From Gammaproteobacteria bacterium (GTDB lineage: Bacteria; Pseudomonadota; Gammaproteobacteria; Chromatiales; Chromatiaceae): 64,000 nucleotides of DNA. Below, one piece after another: positions 52,439 through 58,302 of this stretch (position 1 is the stretch's first letter; every line of letters begins with the position of its first letter). The translations under genes were made by a program, and so were the position numbers. The stretch is taken from positions 30,117 to 94,116 of the forward strand of contig RZZN01000006.1 in the NCBI GenBank assembly GCA_009929855.1, written 5' to 3'. Below the pieces are notes generated by a model. The model was not told where the DNA came from and ran no database searches. It saw only the letters and a program-made list of their open reading frames with translations.

Positions 52439-53851
52439 ATGGAGCTCATCGGTCTCTATCCCACCTGGTTCGAGCCTATGGTGGGCAGCGGTTGGATCGT
52501 TGGCATCATCGCCACCATCCATGTGCTCGCCTCACATACCTCGGTCGGGGCGGCGATCTTCTTCGCCGCGCTCGCCACCATCGCCTATCGTCGCAATCAG
52601 CCCGAGCTGCTCGACTTCATCAAGCGCTATGGTCTGTTTCTACTCATCTTCTCCTACGTCATCGGCTCCATCACCGGACCTGGAATCTGGTTCTCGACCA
52701 CGGTGGCCAGTCCACGTGGAATCTCGGCGCTCATCCACAGTTTCGTATGGAAGTGGGCCGCCGAGTGGGTTTTCTTCGTCATCGAGGTGGTCGGTGTCTA
52801 TCTGATCGTCTATCTGGTCGGCCGGGTCGACCAGCGCACCCATCTGCGCATCACCATCATCTTCGGGCTCGCCGCCTATGCCACCATGCTGGTCATCATC
52901 GGGATCCTGTCGTTCATGATGTGGCCCGGCAAGGAGGCATGGTTCGAGCAAGGCGGCTATCTCTACGGCTTCTACGGCGCCAACACCTTCGCGCAGCTGG
53001 CTATGCGCACCGCCTTCATGTTCACCATGACCGCGGTGGTCGGCGGGATCGTCGCCGGCTCGATCCAGGATCCGGCCTTCAAGCGCGACATGGTGCGCCG
53101 TCTCGCCTGGCTCGGCATCGTCTCGAGCATCGCCGGGGCGGCCATCCTCTTCTGGTATGTCAATACCCTGCCCGAATATGCCCACCTGGTGATGGAGAAT
53201 CGTCTGCCCGAATATTTCCTGCCAGCCATGCTCGGCGTGCTCGGCGGCATCCTGGTCTATTTTCTCTTCACCCTGGCCATGCCACGTCGACTCGTCCCGG
53301 CACTCGCCGGTGTGATGGCGCTCGCCATCCTGGTGTTCGGGCTATGGCCCGGCGAGGTCGCGCGCGAATCCATCCGCAAGCCCTATGTCGCCGGACAGTA
53401 CGTCTATTCCAATCAGGTGATCGCGCGCGATGTGCCCGGCATGGGCATCTCCTCCGAGATCCCGCTCCTGGAGGAGCAGGGTTTTCTCAAGACCCATGTC
53501 TTCATCCCGGATGAGCTGCGCGAGGTGACGCCCGCGAATGCCGAGCGCGTCGGCCATGCATTGGCGCTGGTGGCCTGCTCCAATTGTCACTCACTGACCC
53601 ACACCGGCATGCGGCCATTGGCCCATTATTTCGGCGGCAACACCGACATCGACGACATCAAGGTCTATCTGCAGGGCGCACTGGCGACCGGCAATACGCT
53701 CTACATGCCCAAGATCCCCTTGACCGACGCAGAGGCCGAGGCACTGGCGGTCTATCTGGCCAACCTGGCCGACCCCAGAGTCGCCGAGCGCTATGCCGCG
53801 CGCCATCAGGGACTCGCCGCGGCCGACGCGCCGCACAGCCACCTGGAGTGA
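52439..53851 (+). CDS. CydA-superfamily-like polytopic membrane protein fused to C-terminal monoheme cytochrome c domain
   Basis: IATIHVLASHTSVGAAIFFAALATIAYRR, FSYVIGSITGPGIWFSTTVASPRG, WKWAAEWVFFVIEVVGVYLI; C-terminal CSNCH heme c motif with downstream MPKIPLTDAEAEALAVYLANL. Confidence 0.8.
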   Translation: MELIGLYPTWFEPMVGSGWIVGIIATIHVLASHTSVGAAIFFAALATIAYRRNQPELLDFIKRYGLFLLIFSYVIGSITGPGIWFSTTVASPRGISALIHSFVWKWAAEWVFFVIEVVGVYLIVYLVGRVDQRTHLRITIIFGLAAYATMLVIIGILSFMMWPGKEAWFEQGGYLYGFYGANTFAQLAMRTAFMFTMTAVVGGIVAGSIQDPAFKRDMVRRLAWLGIVSSIAGAAILFWYVNTLPEYAHLVMENRLPEYFLPAMLGVLGGILVYFLFTLAMPRRLVPALAGVMALAILVFGLWPGEVARESIRKPYVAGQYVYSNQVIARDVPGMGISSEIPLLEEQGFLKTHVFIPDELREVTPANAERVGHALALVACSNCHSLTHTGMRPLAHYFGGNTDIDDIKVYLQGALATGNTLYMPKIPLTDAEAEALAVYLANLADPRVAERYAARHQGLAAADAPHSHLE

Positions 53852-55086
53852 TGACCGTGGATGCACTCACACTCAATGCACTCAAAGACGTCGCCGGCGT
53901 GCCCTCGCACCCGCTGATCTTCCTGATCCTCGGCGTCGTCACCTTCACCCTGCACATGGTCTCGGTCCAGGTCATGCTGGGGGCGGCGGGGCTGACCATC
54001 TGGGGCGCCTTCAGCCGAGATCGGCACTGGCGTCGACTCGCCCAGTCCATGCTCTTGACCGCCAAGATCGCGGTCTCGATCGCGATCGTGCTCGGGGTCG
54101 CGCCACTGCTGTTCGTACAGGTCATCTACGACCCCTTCTGGTATGTCTCTAACGTCCTCTCGGCCTGGTGGGTGATCGGTTTCATCGTCATCCTGATCTT
54201 CGGCTATCTCCTGATCTACGTCTTCTACGGCCTCAACCATCATCTGGCGACCGAGAAGACCCGCTGCCCCGGCTCGATGATCCTGTCACTACTCCTGCTG
54301 CTGGTGGTCGGATTCATCATGCACGTGCTGGTGCAGCAGATGCTCTCGCCCGATCTCTGGATGAGCTGGTACGCGCCCGCAGGGGCGATCGACGCCTCCG
54401 GCACCGGTCTGCACGACTATGACCTCTTTCGCTTCGCCTTTTTCGTGAGTCTCTCGACCCTGGTGATCGGGGCCTGGCTGATCGCCTACCGACGCTATGT
54501 CGGGCAGCGCGCGGATGCCCGCGAGCTCGCCGGCTATCTCGACTGGGTGCGAACACTGGCGGTGCGCCTGAGTCTCATCGGTGGTCTGGTCTCGCTTCTG
54601 CTCGGCCTGGCCTGGCTGATGACCCTGCCCGAGCGCCATGCCGCGGCCATCCCGGTGGTGCTCTCGCTGATCGCCATGACGGCGATCCTGATCATGGCCA
54701 TCGCCCCCTCGCTGCTCGGCAAGCGGCTCGAGAGCGCGGCACTCGGCTATGGCGTGATGGGTCTGACGACCTTGGCGATCCTCCTGACCGCGGTGGCGCG
54801 CGAGGCACTGCGCTGGAACATCCTTCAGGGGATCTTCGGCTACGCCCCGCTCGACTATCGGATCAACATGGACTGGTACAGTACCGGGCTCTTTTTCGCG
54901 ACCTTCCTGATCGTTGGTGGACTCACCCTAGGCTATTACCTCGGGGTCGCCTGGAAGTCAGGTCAGAGCGCCGGCGTCTATACCCCGTCACCGGCCCTCG
55001 ACCGTCTGGGCACGCTCTCGATCAGCGTGCTGGTGCTGTGGATCATCCACTTCTTCGCCGTGGGCTTCTGGATCTGGATGCAATAG
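53851..55086 (+). CDS. Polytopic membrane protein, partner subunit of the upstream gene
   Basis: ATGA overlap with upstream gene; multiple TM segments with conserved-looking His (FTLHMVSVQVML, GLNHHLATEK, FIMHVLVQQM). Confidence 0.8.
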   Translation: MTVDALTLNALKDVAGVPSHPLIFLILGVVTFTLHMVSVQVMLGAAGLTIWGAFSRDRHWRRLAQSMLLTAKIAVSIAIVLGVAPLLFVQVIYDPFWYVSNVLSAWWVIGFIVILIFGYLLIYVFYGLNHHLATEKTRCPGSMILSLLLLLVVGFIMHVLVQQMLSPDLWMSWYAPAGAIDASGTGLHDYDLFRFAFFVSLSTLVIGAWLIAYRRYVGQRADARELAGYLDWVRTLAVRLSLIGGLVSLLLGLAWLMTLPERHAAAIPVVLSLIAMTAILIMAIAPSLLGKRLESAALGYGVMGLTTLAILLTAVAREALRWNILQGIFGYAPLDYRINMDWYSTGLFFATFLIVGGLTLGYYLGVAWKSGQSAGVYTPSPALDRLGTLSISVLVLWIIHFFAVGFWIWMQ

Positions 55087-55096
55087 GAGCAAGGTC

Positions 55097-55462
55097 ATGT
55101 CGATCAACCATCTGCTGCCCAACAGACACTGGCTCATGCTCCTGGCCCTGACCTCGACCCTGGTCTCCAGCGGGCTCCAGGCCGAGACACCGATTGGAGC
55201 GGACGCGGCGATCGCCGCGCCGGAGACGCTCGCCCATCCCTGCGCCGGCTGTCACGGCACCAACGGCTGGATCGACGACTCGGCCTTCATGCCGCTGGCC
55301 GGGATGCCAGAGTCGATCTTCATCGAGACCATGCTCGATTTTCGCGAGGAGCGACGCGCCTCGACCCTGATGGGGATGGTGGCCCAGGGCTACTCGGACG
55401 CGGAGATCCAGGCCATGGCCAGATTCTTTGTCAACCAACCGAGTGAGGGGACATCACGATGA
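55097..55462 (+). CDS. Exported monoheme cytochrome c (FCSD cytochrome subunit/SoxE-like position)
   Basis: Signal peptide; CAGCH; AFMPLAGMPESIFIETMLDFREERRASTLMGMVAQGYSDAEIQAMARFF. Confidence 0.85.
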   Translation: MSINHLLPNRHWLMLLALTSTLVSSGLQAETPIGADAAIAAPETLAHPCAGCHGTNGWIDDSAFMPLAGMPESIFIETMLDFREERRASTLMGMVAQGYSDAEIQAMARFFVNQPSEGTSR

Positions 55463-56790
55463 AACGGCGTGAATTTCTGTCACTCGCCGGGGCGCTGGCG
55501 GCGGGGACCATGCTGCCGCTCGGCGGCGCGCGCGGCGCCACTGGCGCGCACGTGGTCATCCTCGGTGGTGGCGTGGGCGGAGCCACCGCGGCCAAGTATC
55601 TGCGTCTCATGGACCCTGCCATTCGGGTCACGATCGTGGAGAAGGAGCGCCGCTATCTGCGCCCCTATGGCTCATCCGAGGTCATCACCGGCCATGTCGG
55701 CTTGAGCGACCTGGAGATCGACTACACGCCACTGCAATCCAAGTATGGTGTCACCTTCGTCTTCGACGAGGCGGTGGGTTTCGATCCAATCGCCCAGCGG
55801 CTCGCACTCAAGGGCGGCGAGTCTCTGAGCTACGACCGCCTGATCGTCTCACCCGGGATCCAACTGCTCTACGACCAGATCGAGGGCCATTCGGAGGCGC
55901 TGGCGAAGGCACGCTTCCCCGCGGCCTGGATCCCCGGATCCCAGACCCAGCTGCTGCGCAATCAGCTCGAGTCGATGCCGCAGGGTGGCACCTTCGCGAT
56001 CGTCGCACCGCCGAATCCATTCCGCTGCCCGCCCGGACCCTATGAGCGCGGCGCGCTGGTGGCCGAATGGTGTCAACGGCACAACCCGCGCGCGAAGATC
56101 CTGATCCTGGATCCACGCAACAGCTTTGTCACCGATCAGAGCATGATGCTCGGCTGGAATCGGCTCTATGGCTTCAACATCCCGCTGGAGTTCATGGCCG
56201 ACATGCCCGATGACGTGCAGACCCACGCCAATCCGGGCCTGATCGAATGGATCCGCCAGCAGGACGGCGGCACCCTGATCAGTCTGGACGCCGGGTCCAA
56301 GGCGCTCGAGACCGAGGGTGGACGGGTCAGCGCCGATGTCATCAACATCATCCCGCCGATGCGTGCCGGGGCGATCGCCGAGGCCATGGGGCTCACCGAT
56401 GCGAGCGGCTTCTGCCCGATCGATCCCATGACCTTCGAGTCACGTCTGCAACCCAAGGTGCATGTCATCGGGGACGCCTGCATCGCCGACCAGATGCCGA
56501 AATCCGGTTACGCGGCGAACAATCAGGCCAAGGTGACCGCGCGCGCGCTGGTGGATCTGTTCGCCGGTCGCGAGCCCGGCCCGCCCTCCTGGCAGAACAC
56601 CTGCTATGCCCTGGCCGGCTCGGAGTATGGGCTCTTCGTGGCCGCCGTCTATCGACTCCAGGACGGGCGCATCACCGCCCATCCAGGCGTGCGCTTTCAG
56701 TCACTCGACGCCACGCCGGCACAGATCAGACTGGGGGCCGTGTATCAGCAAAACTGGCTGGCCTCATTCACCGAGGATTGTTTCGCATGA
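55459..56790 (+). CDS. fccB: FCSD/SoxF-like flavoprotein subunit (sulfide dehydrogenase family)
   Basis: Tat-like signal KRREFLSLAGALAAG; Rossmann HVVILGGGVGGATAAKYLRLMDP; CPPGPYERG; AGREPGPPSWQNTCYAL; ATGA overlap with upstream cytochrome. Confidence 0.92.
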   Translation: MKRREFLSLAGALAAGTMLPLGGARGATGAHVVILGGGVGGATAAKYLRLMDPAIRVTIVEKERRYLRPYGSSEVITGHVGLSDLEIDYTPLQSKYGVTFVFDEAVGFDPIAQRLALKGGESLSYDRLIVSPGIQLLYDQIEGHSEALAKARFPAAWIPGSQTQLLRNQLESMPQGGTFAIVAPPNPFRCPPGPYERGALVAEWCQRHNPRAKILILDPRNSFVTDQSMMLGWNRLYGFNIPLEFMADMPDDVQTHANPGLIEWIRQQDGGTLISLDAGSKALETEGGRVSADVINIIPPMRAGAIAEAMGLTDASGFCPIDPMTFESRLQPKVHVIGDACIADQMPKSGYAANNQAKVTARALVDLFAGREPGPPSWQNTCYALAGSEYGLFVAAVYRLQDGRITAHPGVRFQSLDATPAQIRLGAVYQQNWLASFTEDCFA

Positions 56791-57497
56791 AGACCATTGC
56801 GACCACGCTGATACTCTTGATGGGCGGAGCGCTCGCGAGCTGGTCACCGCAAGCCGCCGAGACCCGTGCGCCCGCCGCCGATTGGACCCCCGCGGCCCTG
56901 TCGGCGACACTCGCGGCCATGCCCGAGGGTGACGCGGCTCGCGGCCAGCTGCTGCATCGGGAGTGGATGTGCGACTCCTGCCATGGCGCGGCGGGTATCG
57001 CCCCCACGGCCAACTGGCCGAGCCTGGCCGGCCAGAAGGCCGATTACACCTACAAGATCCTGCTCGACTATCTCGCCGAGCGCCGCAACGAGGATCGGCG
57101 CAGCGAGTTGATGATCGCGCTGATGCCCATGCTCTCCGATCAGGACATGGCCGATCTCGCGGTCTTCTACGAGGGCTTGACCCCATCCGCGGTCGACCCG
57201 ATCCTGCGTGCCGACGACACGGCCGACCTCGCGCACGCCGCCGCGCTGGCGCGCAAGGGCGATCGCTCCCGTCTGATCACGCCCTGTGCCTCCTGTCATG
57301 GTCGTCATGGTCAAGGCGGCATCCATGCCGCCCCGGCCTTGGCCGGTCAGATGCCGATCGCCTTCACGCGCACCATGAATGCGTACAAATCGGGGCTGCG
57401 TGACAACGATGTGAAGGCATCCATGTCGCAGTTCGCGCGCAAGCTCACGGATGAGGAGATCCATGATCTGGCGACCTATTACGCCAGGATGGATTGA
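56787..57497 (+). CDS. Exported diheme cytochrome c (c4-like)
   Basis: Signal peptide; two CXXCH motifs (CDSCH, CASCH); start overlaps fccB stop. Confidence 0.9.
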   Translation: MKTIATTLILLMGGALASWSPQAAETRAPAADWTPAALSATLAAMPEGDAARGQLLHREWMCDSCHGAAGIAPTANWPSLAGQKADYTYKILLDYLAERRNEDRRSELMIALMPMLSDQDMADLAVFYEGLTPSAVDPILRADDTADLAHAAALARKGDRSRLITPCASCHGRHGQGGIHAAPALAGQMPIAFTRTMNAYKSGLRDNDVKASMSQFARKLTDEEIHDLATYYARMD

Positions 57498-57594: not shown

Positions 57595-58302
57595 ATGATC
57601 TCGGACCCTCGACTGTGCCAGCAGATCCTCGACACCTGTCCCTTCCTCGCGGCAGCACCGCCTGACTTTCACAGCACATTCTTTGCGAGCACCCGGCTGA
57701 TCGCACTGCCCGCCGCACAGCGCATCTGTCGAGACGGCGCGCATTGCGAGATCCTGCCCCTGATCCTGAGCGGCGTTGGACGGGTCTACAAACTGGGTGA
57801 AAACGGCCGAGAGATCACGCTCTATCGCCTGAGCCCGGGCGAGAGCTGTGTCATCACCGCCTCCTGCATCCTCAGCGATCGGGCATTTCCAGCCGATGCC
57901 GTCACCGAGACACCCGTCCGGGCAGTGGCGGTGAGTCCAGCGACGATGCGGGACTGGATGGCCAGGGTCGAGCCGTGGCGACGCTATATCTTCGGCCTGC
58001 TGGCCGAGCGCTTGCATGATGTGTTTGGCGTACTCGACGCCGTGCTCTTCCAACGTATCGACCAACGGCTCATCGCGCTGCTGTTGGAGAGGCACCAGAG
58101 CGCACCGGATCGCATCATCCACACGACCCACCAGTCGCTCGCGGCCGATCTAGGCTCGGCGCGCGAGGTGGTCAGCCGCGTGCTCAAAGGATTGGAGGGA
58201 CTCGGCCTGCTGCGGCTCGGTCGCGGACAGATCCTGCTGCTGGATCGAGCAGGTTTGGAGCGTCATGCACACGAGCGCAGTGCACACCCGCACGATGAGT
58301 GA
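57595..58302 (+). CDS. Crp/Fnr-family transcriptional regulator
   Basis: cNMP-binding-like N-terminus with Cys-containing segments (CQQILDTC, CRDGAHC, GESCVITASCIL); HTH SLAADLGSAREVVSRVLKGLEGLGLLRLGRGQILLLD. Confidence 0.92.
   Translation: MISDPRLCQQILDTCPFLAAAPPDFHSTFFASTRLIALPAAQRICRDGAHCEILPLILSGVGRVYKLGENGREITLYRLSPGESCVITASCILSDRAFPADAVTETPVRAVAVSPATMRDWMARVEPWRRYIFGLLAERLHDVFGVLDAVLFQRIDQRLIALLLERHQSAPDRIIHTTHQSLAADLGSAREVVSRVLKGLEGLGLLRLGRGQILLLDRAGLERHAHERSAHPHDE

Follow-up and report, generated by a model that had tools for sequence, protein, structure and literature searches.

A cytochrome bd-like oxidase pair with a haem c domain is encoded with FCSD genes in a putative quinone-independent sulfide oxidation operon

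In the window, a stretch of 64,000 nucleotides from a gammaproteobacterium of the Chromatiaceae, five genes that overlap or are separated by short gaps encode a CydA-like protein with a cytochrome c domain (subunit A), a second protein of related fold (subunit B), the two proteins FccA and FccB of a flavocytochrome c sulfide dehydrogenase (FCSD), and a cytochrome c4-like carrier (Table 1). We propose that this operon encodes a quinone-independent chain from sulfide to O2 that ends in a bd-like oxidase oxidising cytochrome c, an interpretation that we consider probable.

Table 1. Features of the five-gene operon and of subunit A, with positions in the window
Feature	Position	Strand	Basis
Subunit A, CydA fold with C-terminal periplasmic monohaem cytochrome c domain	52439..53851	+	8 predicted TM helices
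H28, equivalent to E. coli CydA H19 (active-site haem ligand)	52520..52522	+	hhalign; 89/89 homologues
E109 and E116 on TM3	52763..52786	+	hhalign; homologue conservation
E306-V-A-R309-E310-S-I-R313-K-P-Y316, degenerate form of W441-x-x-x-E445-x-G-R-Q-P-W451	53354..53386	+	profile alignment
CSNCH haem c attachment site, C380-x-x-C383-H384	53576..53590	+	invariant in homologues; Met ligand M423
Subunit B, 411 aa, bd-oxidase-subunit fold, paralogue of A	53851..55086	+	AlphaFold2/Foldseek; similarity to A
Monohaem FccA	55097..55462	+	1fcd_C E=7.9e-17; also 3vrd_A, 5n1t_B
FccB flavoprotein of FCSD	55459..56790	+	PF21706 1e-37; 5n1t_A 3e-108, 3vrd_B 5e-106, 1fcd_A 7e-104
Dihaem cytochrome c4-like electron carrier	56787..57497	+	6q2u_A (cytochrome c4) 6e-21; PF00034 2e-17

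Results

Subunit A comprises 470 residues and its ATG start agrees with residue 1 of its homologues. A sequence-only reading of this DNA had described it as a CydA-like protein with a C-terminal c-type domain. This description is confirmed: all stretches quoted for it (IHVLASHTSVGAAIFFAALA, WAAEWVFFVIEVVGVYLI, CSNCH and YMPKIP) are present in the open reading frame, and the key residues are invariant in about 90 homologues. The Pfam model PF01654 (Cyt_bd_oxida_I) scores 17.6 bits on subunit A and is thus sub-threshold (cut-off 26.2), as is the match to the CBB3 cytochrome c model (E=0.003). Membership in the cytochrome bd superfamily does not depend on passing the PF01654 cut-off; the model suits quinol-type CydA best. 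Across the whole 4.8 Mb assembly, the only PF01654 match is this sub-threshold one at the subunit A locus, so that the genome of the window has no recognisable canonical CydA. As a direct sequence search against solved structures returned cytochrome c domains only, a structure search was needed. With the AlphaFold2 model of subunit A (pLDDT 82, 53 relatives in the alignment), all nine Foldseek matches in the PDB with E<=0.001 were CydA chains (9r2g, 8b4o, 5doq, 7d5i, 9fka, 6rko, 7nkz, 7ose and 7oy2; probability 1.00, TMq 0.43-0.53). The CydA fold of the bd superfamily, with its two four-helix bundles, is supported by Foldseek and also by hhalign, the latter aligning subunit A with a profile of 28 canonical CydAs over helices 1-6 (P=1.2e-6). 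Membership in an unrelated membrane family, which had been named earlier as one of two outcomes that would speak against a CydA-like protein, is contradicted by this fold. By its predicted structure, subunit A is a member of the cytochrome bd superfamily with sub-threshold sequence similarity. We also considered subunit A as an alternative complex III membrane subunit and rejected this assignment: the ActC/ActF folds rank 18 and lower in the Foldseek list, behind the bd chains. The eight helices together with short arginine-bearing cytoplasmic loops (residues 52-54, 126-131, 207-211 and 281-286) place the C-terminus of subunit A in the periplasm, the side on which haem c attachment takes place.

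In E. coli CydA, H19 and E445 are ligands of the active-site haems, E107 belongs to the proton path, and H186 and M393 bind haem b558. We checked the conservation of their counterparts in about 90 homologues of subunit A (89-91 sequences, down to about 26% identity) and found H28, E109, E310, C380, C383, H384 and M423 to be invariant. This bears out the monohaem site and the methionine ligand within YMPKIP that had been read from the sequence. E116 aligns with E. coli E107 and is conserved with one exception, an aspartate, while E109 lies one residue away from the position of E. coli E99. E306, R309, E310, R313, K314 and P315 are kept in 91 of 91 sequences, and A-R-E310-S-I-R313-K-P-Y aligns ungapped to E. 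coli V-A-E445-Y-G-R-Q-P-W, an alignment with weak statistics when taken alone (P=0.0055). Judged from this correspondence, E310 is the counterpart of E445 and hence the predicted b595 ligand. The counterpart of GRQPW in this family is ES(x)RKP[WY] (consensus ARES.RKPW); the earlier statement that GRQPW is lacking therefore holds for the strict motif only, since a degenerate form of it is present. GRQPW had also been taken as the motif of the Q-loop, which it is not; the Q-loop of cytochrome bd sits between helices 6 and 7 (PMC8951039). At this position subunit A has a connection of 16 residues (244-259) compared with roughly 140 residues canonically, and the Q-loop itself is indeed absent. An alignment with canonical CydA had been proposed earlier as a check, and a lack of conserved haem b ligands named as the other outcome against the CydA-like reading. 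The reading withstood this check: the active-site ligands H28 and E310 are conserved. The b558 ligands have no counterpart. In the hhalign comparison H186 lies opposite a gap beside the invariant R190 of subunit A, and the family consensus contains no conserved methionine or histidine in helix 7 that could correspond to M393. Subunit A is, as far as its ligands predict, a bd-type protein that has retained the haems of the O2 site, lost the haem of the quinol side and gained a haem c.

This combination bears on a reading in which A and B are not an oxidase at all but form a bd-derived membrane conduit between periplasmic cytochromes and quinones for reverse electron transport. Such a role could accommodate the sub-threshold sequence similarity and the lower-ranking Foldseek matches to membrane subunits of alternative complex III. 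Yet both active-site haem ligands are invariant in a protein that lacks the Q-loop and the b558 ligands, and bd oxidase chains clearly outrank the complex III subunits in the structural comparison. We regard a conduit as extremely unlikely and return to the oxidase reading. The earlier suggestion that a cytochrome c or flavocytochrome would serve as electron donor instead of quinol gains support from the absence of the quinol site together with the presence of haem c, FccA-FccB and a c4-like carrier in the operon.

Subunit B and the operon around it had been overlooked in the sequence-only reading. The start of its gene falls within the stop codon of subunit A. Searches of subunit B against Pfam and NCBIfam matched no family and a direct sequence search against solved structures returned nothing. 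Its AlphaFold2 model (pLDDT 92.5) has bd oxidase subunits I and II as its eleven best Foldseek matches. Profile comparison relates subunit B to subunit A (P=8.8e-7); no significant relation to CydA emerged (P=0.016), so that its kinship rests on the fold and on the similarity to A. H35 and R321 of subunit B are invariant, four of the most distant members have histidine instead of E318, and the glutamate pair of TM3 is absent. Genes for A and B are adjacent in essentially every relative with enough DNA, including those of Thermus, Methylosinus and Agrobacterium plasmids. Subunit B may act as a paralogous partner of bd fold, as CydA' or CydB do in other systems.

The downstream genes encode an FCSD module (PF09242 1e-17, PF21706 1e-37). 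FccB has the central and flavin-binding domains of FCSD with the pair of redox cysteines (C190 and C382, invariant in the 60-61 readable FccBs of the operon), and the gene adjoining it encodes the cytochrome c subunit. The cysteine that anchors FAD covalently in 1fcd is replaced by Pro69. Among 61 operon FccBs this position is occupied by proline or glycine in 38 and by cysteine in 23, which suggests that FAD is bound non-covalently in the main FccB lineage of the operon. A promoter scan found nothing. Just 3' of the operon, on the same strand, lies a gene for a Crp/Fnr-type regulator (57595-58302), a 40% identical relative of which follows the operon at locus L033. We did not retain this regulator as a conserved neighbour, as L033 was the only locus with a Crp match nearby.

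We counted linkage in 64 related loci whose sequence extends 4.2 kb or more downstream, and required that B, FccB and the c4-like gene all lie within 4.6 kb. All five genes occur in the order A-B-FccA-FccB-c4 in 56 of these loci from many families (55 found by script and one, L026, by inspection, as the script missed it solely owing to a long merged frame). The remaining eight loci show the greatest divergence (46-59% identity) and carry A-B without FccB. On the tree of subunit A, computed with a quick method, the FCSD-linked members form one clade (SH-aLRT 89), and in their pairwise identities A and FccB vary together (r=0.71; 0 of 999 permutations). The A-B pair occurs without FCSD in Thermus, Methylosinus, Agrobacterium plasmids and Sulfurimonas, and FCSD is therefore not the sole donor for this family. 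On the plasmids subunit A is annotated as 'cytochrome c' and subunit B as 'hypothetical protein'.

Several loci differ in their surroundings. At one (L133 114-4357) the gene order differs, with FccB upstream of A and B and a weak c4-like match downstream. On a plasmid of Methylosinus sp. C49 (L152 8001-12943), A-B, a c-type cytochrome and a two-component pair adjoin methanobactin genes, a setting that hints at the use of a copper-free oxidase when copper is scarce. On two plasmids of Thermus thermophilus (L153 6235-8801 and L155 6001-8567), the surroundings of A-B include a SaoD/DsrE gene and genes for metal ABC transporters.

According to the FccB tree, the slot behind A-B has been filled by more than one lineage of FccB. 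Between Thiomicrorhabdus strains, A is 89-91% and B 85-87% identical, but all three FCSD genes are only 44-53% identical. In Thiomicrorhabdus heinhorstiae (L051 3954-13273) two operons lie in tandem with identical A and B and different FCSD modules (44% identity for the monohaem cytochrome c, 57% for the partial FccB). Gene conversion, a recent duplication or an assembly artefact could each account for this arrangement. Such exchange of modules supports functional coupling over shared ancestry alone. These data also bear on the possibility that a cytochrome c-oxidising bd-like oxidase AB takes its electrons from the general pool of periplasmic cytochrome c (bc1, Sox), with FCSD merely co-regulated. 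The distant members with A-B in the absence of FCSD would fit this, a c4-like carrier could accept electrons from many sources, and c4 belongs to bc1-cbb3 assemblies (8smr and 8snh, with a sequence identical to 6q2u). A general pool would, however, leave unexplained why linkage and gene order persist across so many families, why the same AB pair precedes each of two FCSD modules in T. heinhorstiae, and why A and FccB vary together. We consider it rather unlikely and favour FCSD as the probable source of electrons for the operon-encoded oxidase.

The hosts of the five-gene loci are nearly all sulfur oxidisers, and many are sulfur lithotrophs by name. Host loci were found in Thiothrix, Thiomonas, Thiobacillus, Thiomicrorhabdus, Hydrogenovibrio, Halothiobacillus, Thiocapsa, Thiohalocapsa, Sulfurivirga, Tepidimonas and Hydrogenophaga, among others. 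Subunit A is present in one of ten genomes of the same genus, and this copy (G007) is identical to that of Thiocapsa sp. UBA6158, which makes a member of the Chromatiaceae near Thiocapsa the probable host; the subunit A of the window is nearest to Thiothrix (78% identity) compared with 67% to the Thiocapsa copy. As judged from these sequence relationships, horizontal spread of the operon is likely. The genome of the window also contains photosynthetic reaction-centre genes, a cbb3 oxidase and two other FCSD loci, and consequently offers other outlets for FCSD electrons. In genome G445 (locus L112), several stop codons within a single stretch interrupt the CydA matches, which probably represent a cydA gene in decay.

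Discussion

Each component of the proposed chain has support from its sequence. FccB would act in the periplasm, using its flavin and redox disulfide to oxidise sulfide. Electrons would pass from FccB to the monohaem FccA, the dihaem c4-like carrier or both, then to the haem c of subunit A, and from there directly to the bd-like two-haem site of the same subunit, where O2 could be reduced to water. The conserved TM3 glutamates of A may lead protons in from the cytoplasm, in which case turnover would be electrogenic. This point matters for a further alternative, namely that AB is a sink that detoxifies O2 or peroxide and protects the sulfide-oxidising or photosynthetic machinery with no conservation of energy. 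Protective roles have been described for canonical bd oxidases (PMC10839748), and the host has a cbb3 oxidase and phototrophy genes besides. On the other hand, the TM3 glutamates and E310 fit a proton-coupled reduction of O2 and many hosts bear the names of sulfur lithotrophs, so that we judge a purely protective function to be very unlikely compared with respiration by the AB oxidase.

Sulfide poisons haem-copper cytochrome c oxidases, and FCSD-type enzymes deliver their electrons at the level of cytochrome c. If our interpretation is true, a bd-like oxidase fed by cytochrome c would resolve this conflict and might account for the respiration of many sulfur oxidisers at high sulfide and low O2. 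As bd active sites tolerate sulfide, such an oxidase would allow respiration where sulfide poisons haem-copper oxidases. Sulfide at up to 58 uM does not affect the bd enzymes of E. coli, whereas bo3 has an IC50 of 1.1 uM (PMC4815019). Extrapolating from these quinol-type enzymes, the AB oxidase is probably sulfide-tolerant. In its widest form, our hypothesis would be that the five proteins make up a single membrane-anchored respirasome, free of quinone and copper, in which sulfide oxidation is coupled directly to electrogenic O2 reduction by a sulfide-tolerant oxidase; its operon would be passed on by horizontal transfer between sulfur oxidisers, and its oxidase half would accept different flavocytochrome modules. 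We put this forward tentatively, as a possibility that is more doubtful than the chain itself. The operon is invisible to automatic annotation and surveys of terminal oxidases probably miss it; it also offers partner proteins with which the c-type branch of this superfamily, otherwise uncharacterised, can be put to the test.

Murali, Gennis and Hemp are said to have described the OR-C and OR-N families of the cytochrome bd superfamily in 2021. OR-C presumably carries a C-terminal cytochrome c, a feature that subunit A, being CydA-like and devoid of a quinol site, would share. Compared by this description only, the AB enzyme resembles the OR-C family in kind. Two publications present OR-C and OR-N as bd-superfamily proteins thought to use cytochrome c and not quinol and, like AB, often as pairs of paralogous subunits (CydAA') (PMC10839748, PMC12342949). 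A gammaproteobacterial CydA relative of 638 residues (L113) that is OR-N-like in appearance adjoins a gene for a multi-CxxCH cytochrome. We retained no placement of A near OR-N, as this protein resembles canonical CydA (P=1.7e-11) more than it does A (P=0.024). The CydA homologue of cable bacteria, 'CydAh', also has a periplasmic cytochrome c domain; the excerpt of that report mentions no linked FCSD or second bd-like subunit, and the likeness to A is one of description only (PMC13047784). The literature searched, which did not cover Murali et al. 2021, gave no description of a bd-like/FCSD operon. The c-type branch of the bd superfamily is already known, and the FCSD-linked operon appears to be a new variant.

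With canonical CydAB, subunit A shares the fold and the counterparts of H19, E107, E445 and RQPW; it differs in lacking the Q-loop, H186/M393 with haem b558, and TM9 and in having an added haem c domain, while subunit B can be aligned in sequence to A and not detectably to CydA. With FCSD of known structure (1fcd, 3vrd, 5n1t) the operon has in common FccA and an FccB with both redox cysteines, but its module is encoded together with an oxidase and a c4-like carrier. A parallel for a dihaem c4-like carrier that feeds a terminal oxidase is the pairing of cytochrome c4 and cbb3 oxidase (6q2u, 8smr), whereas the c4-like gene of the operon adjoins a bd-like oxidase that is presumably copper-free.
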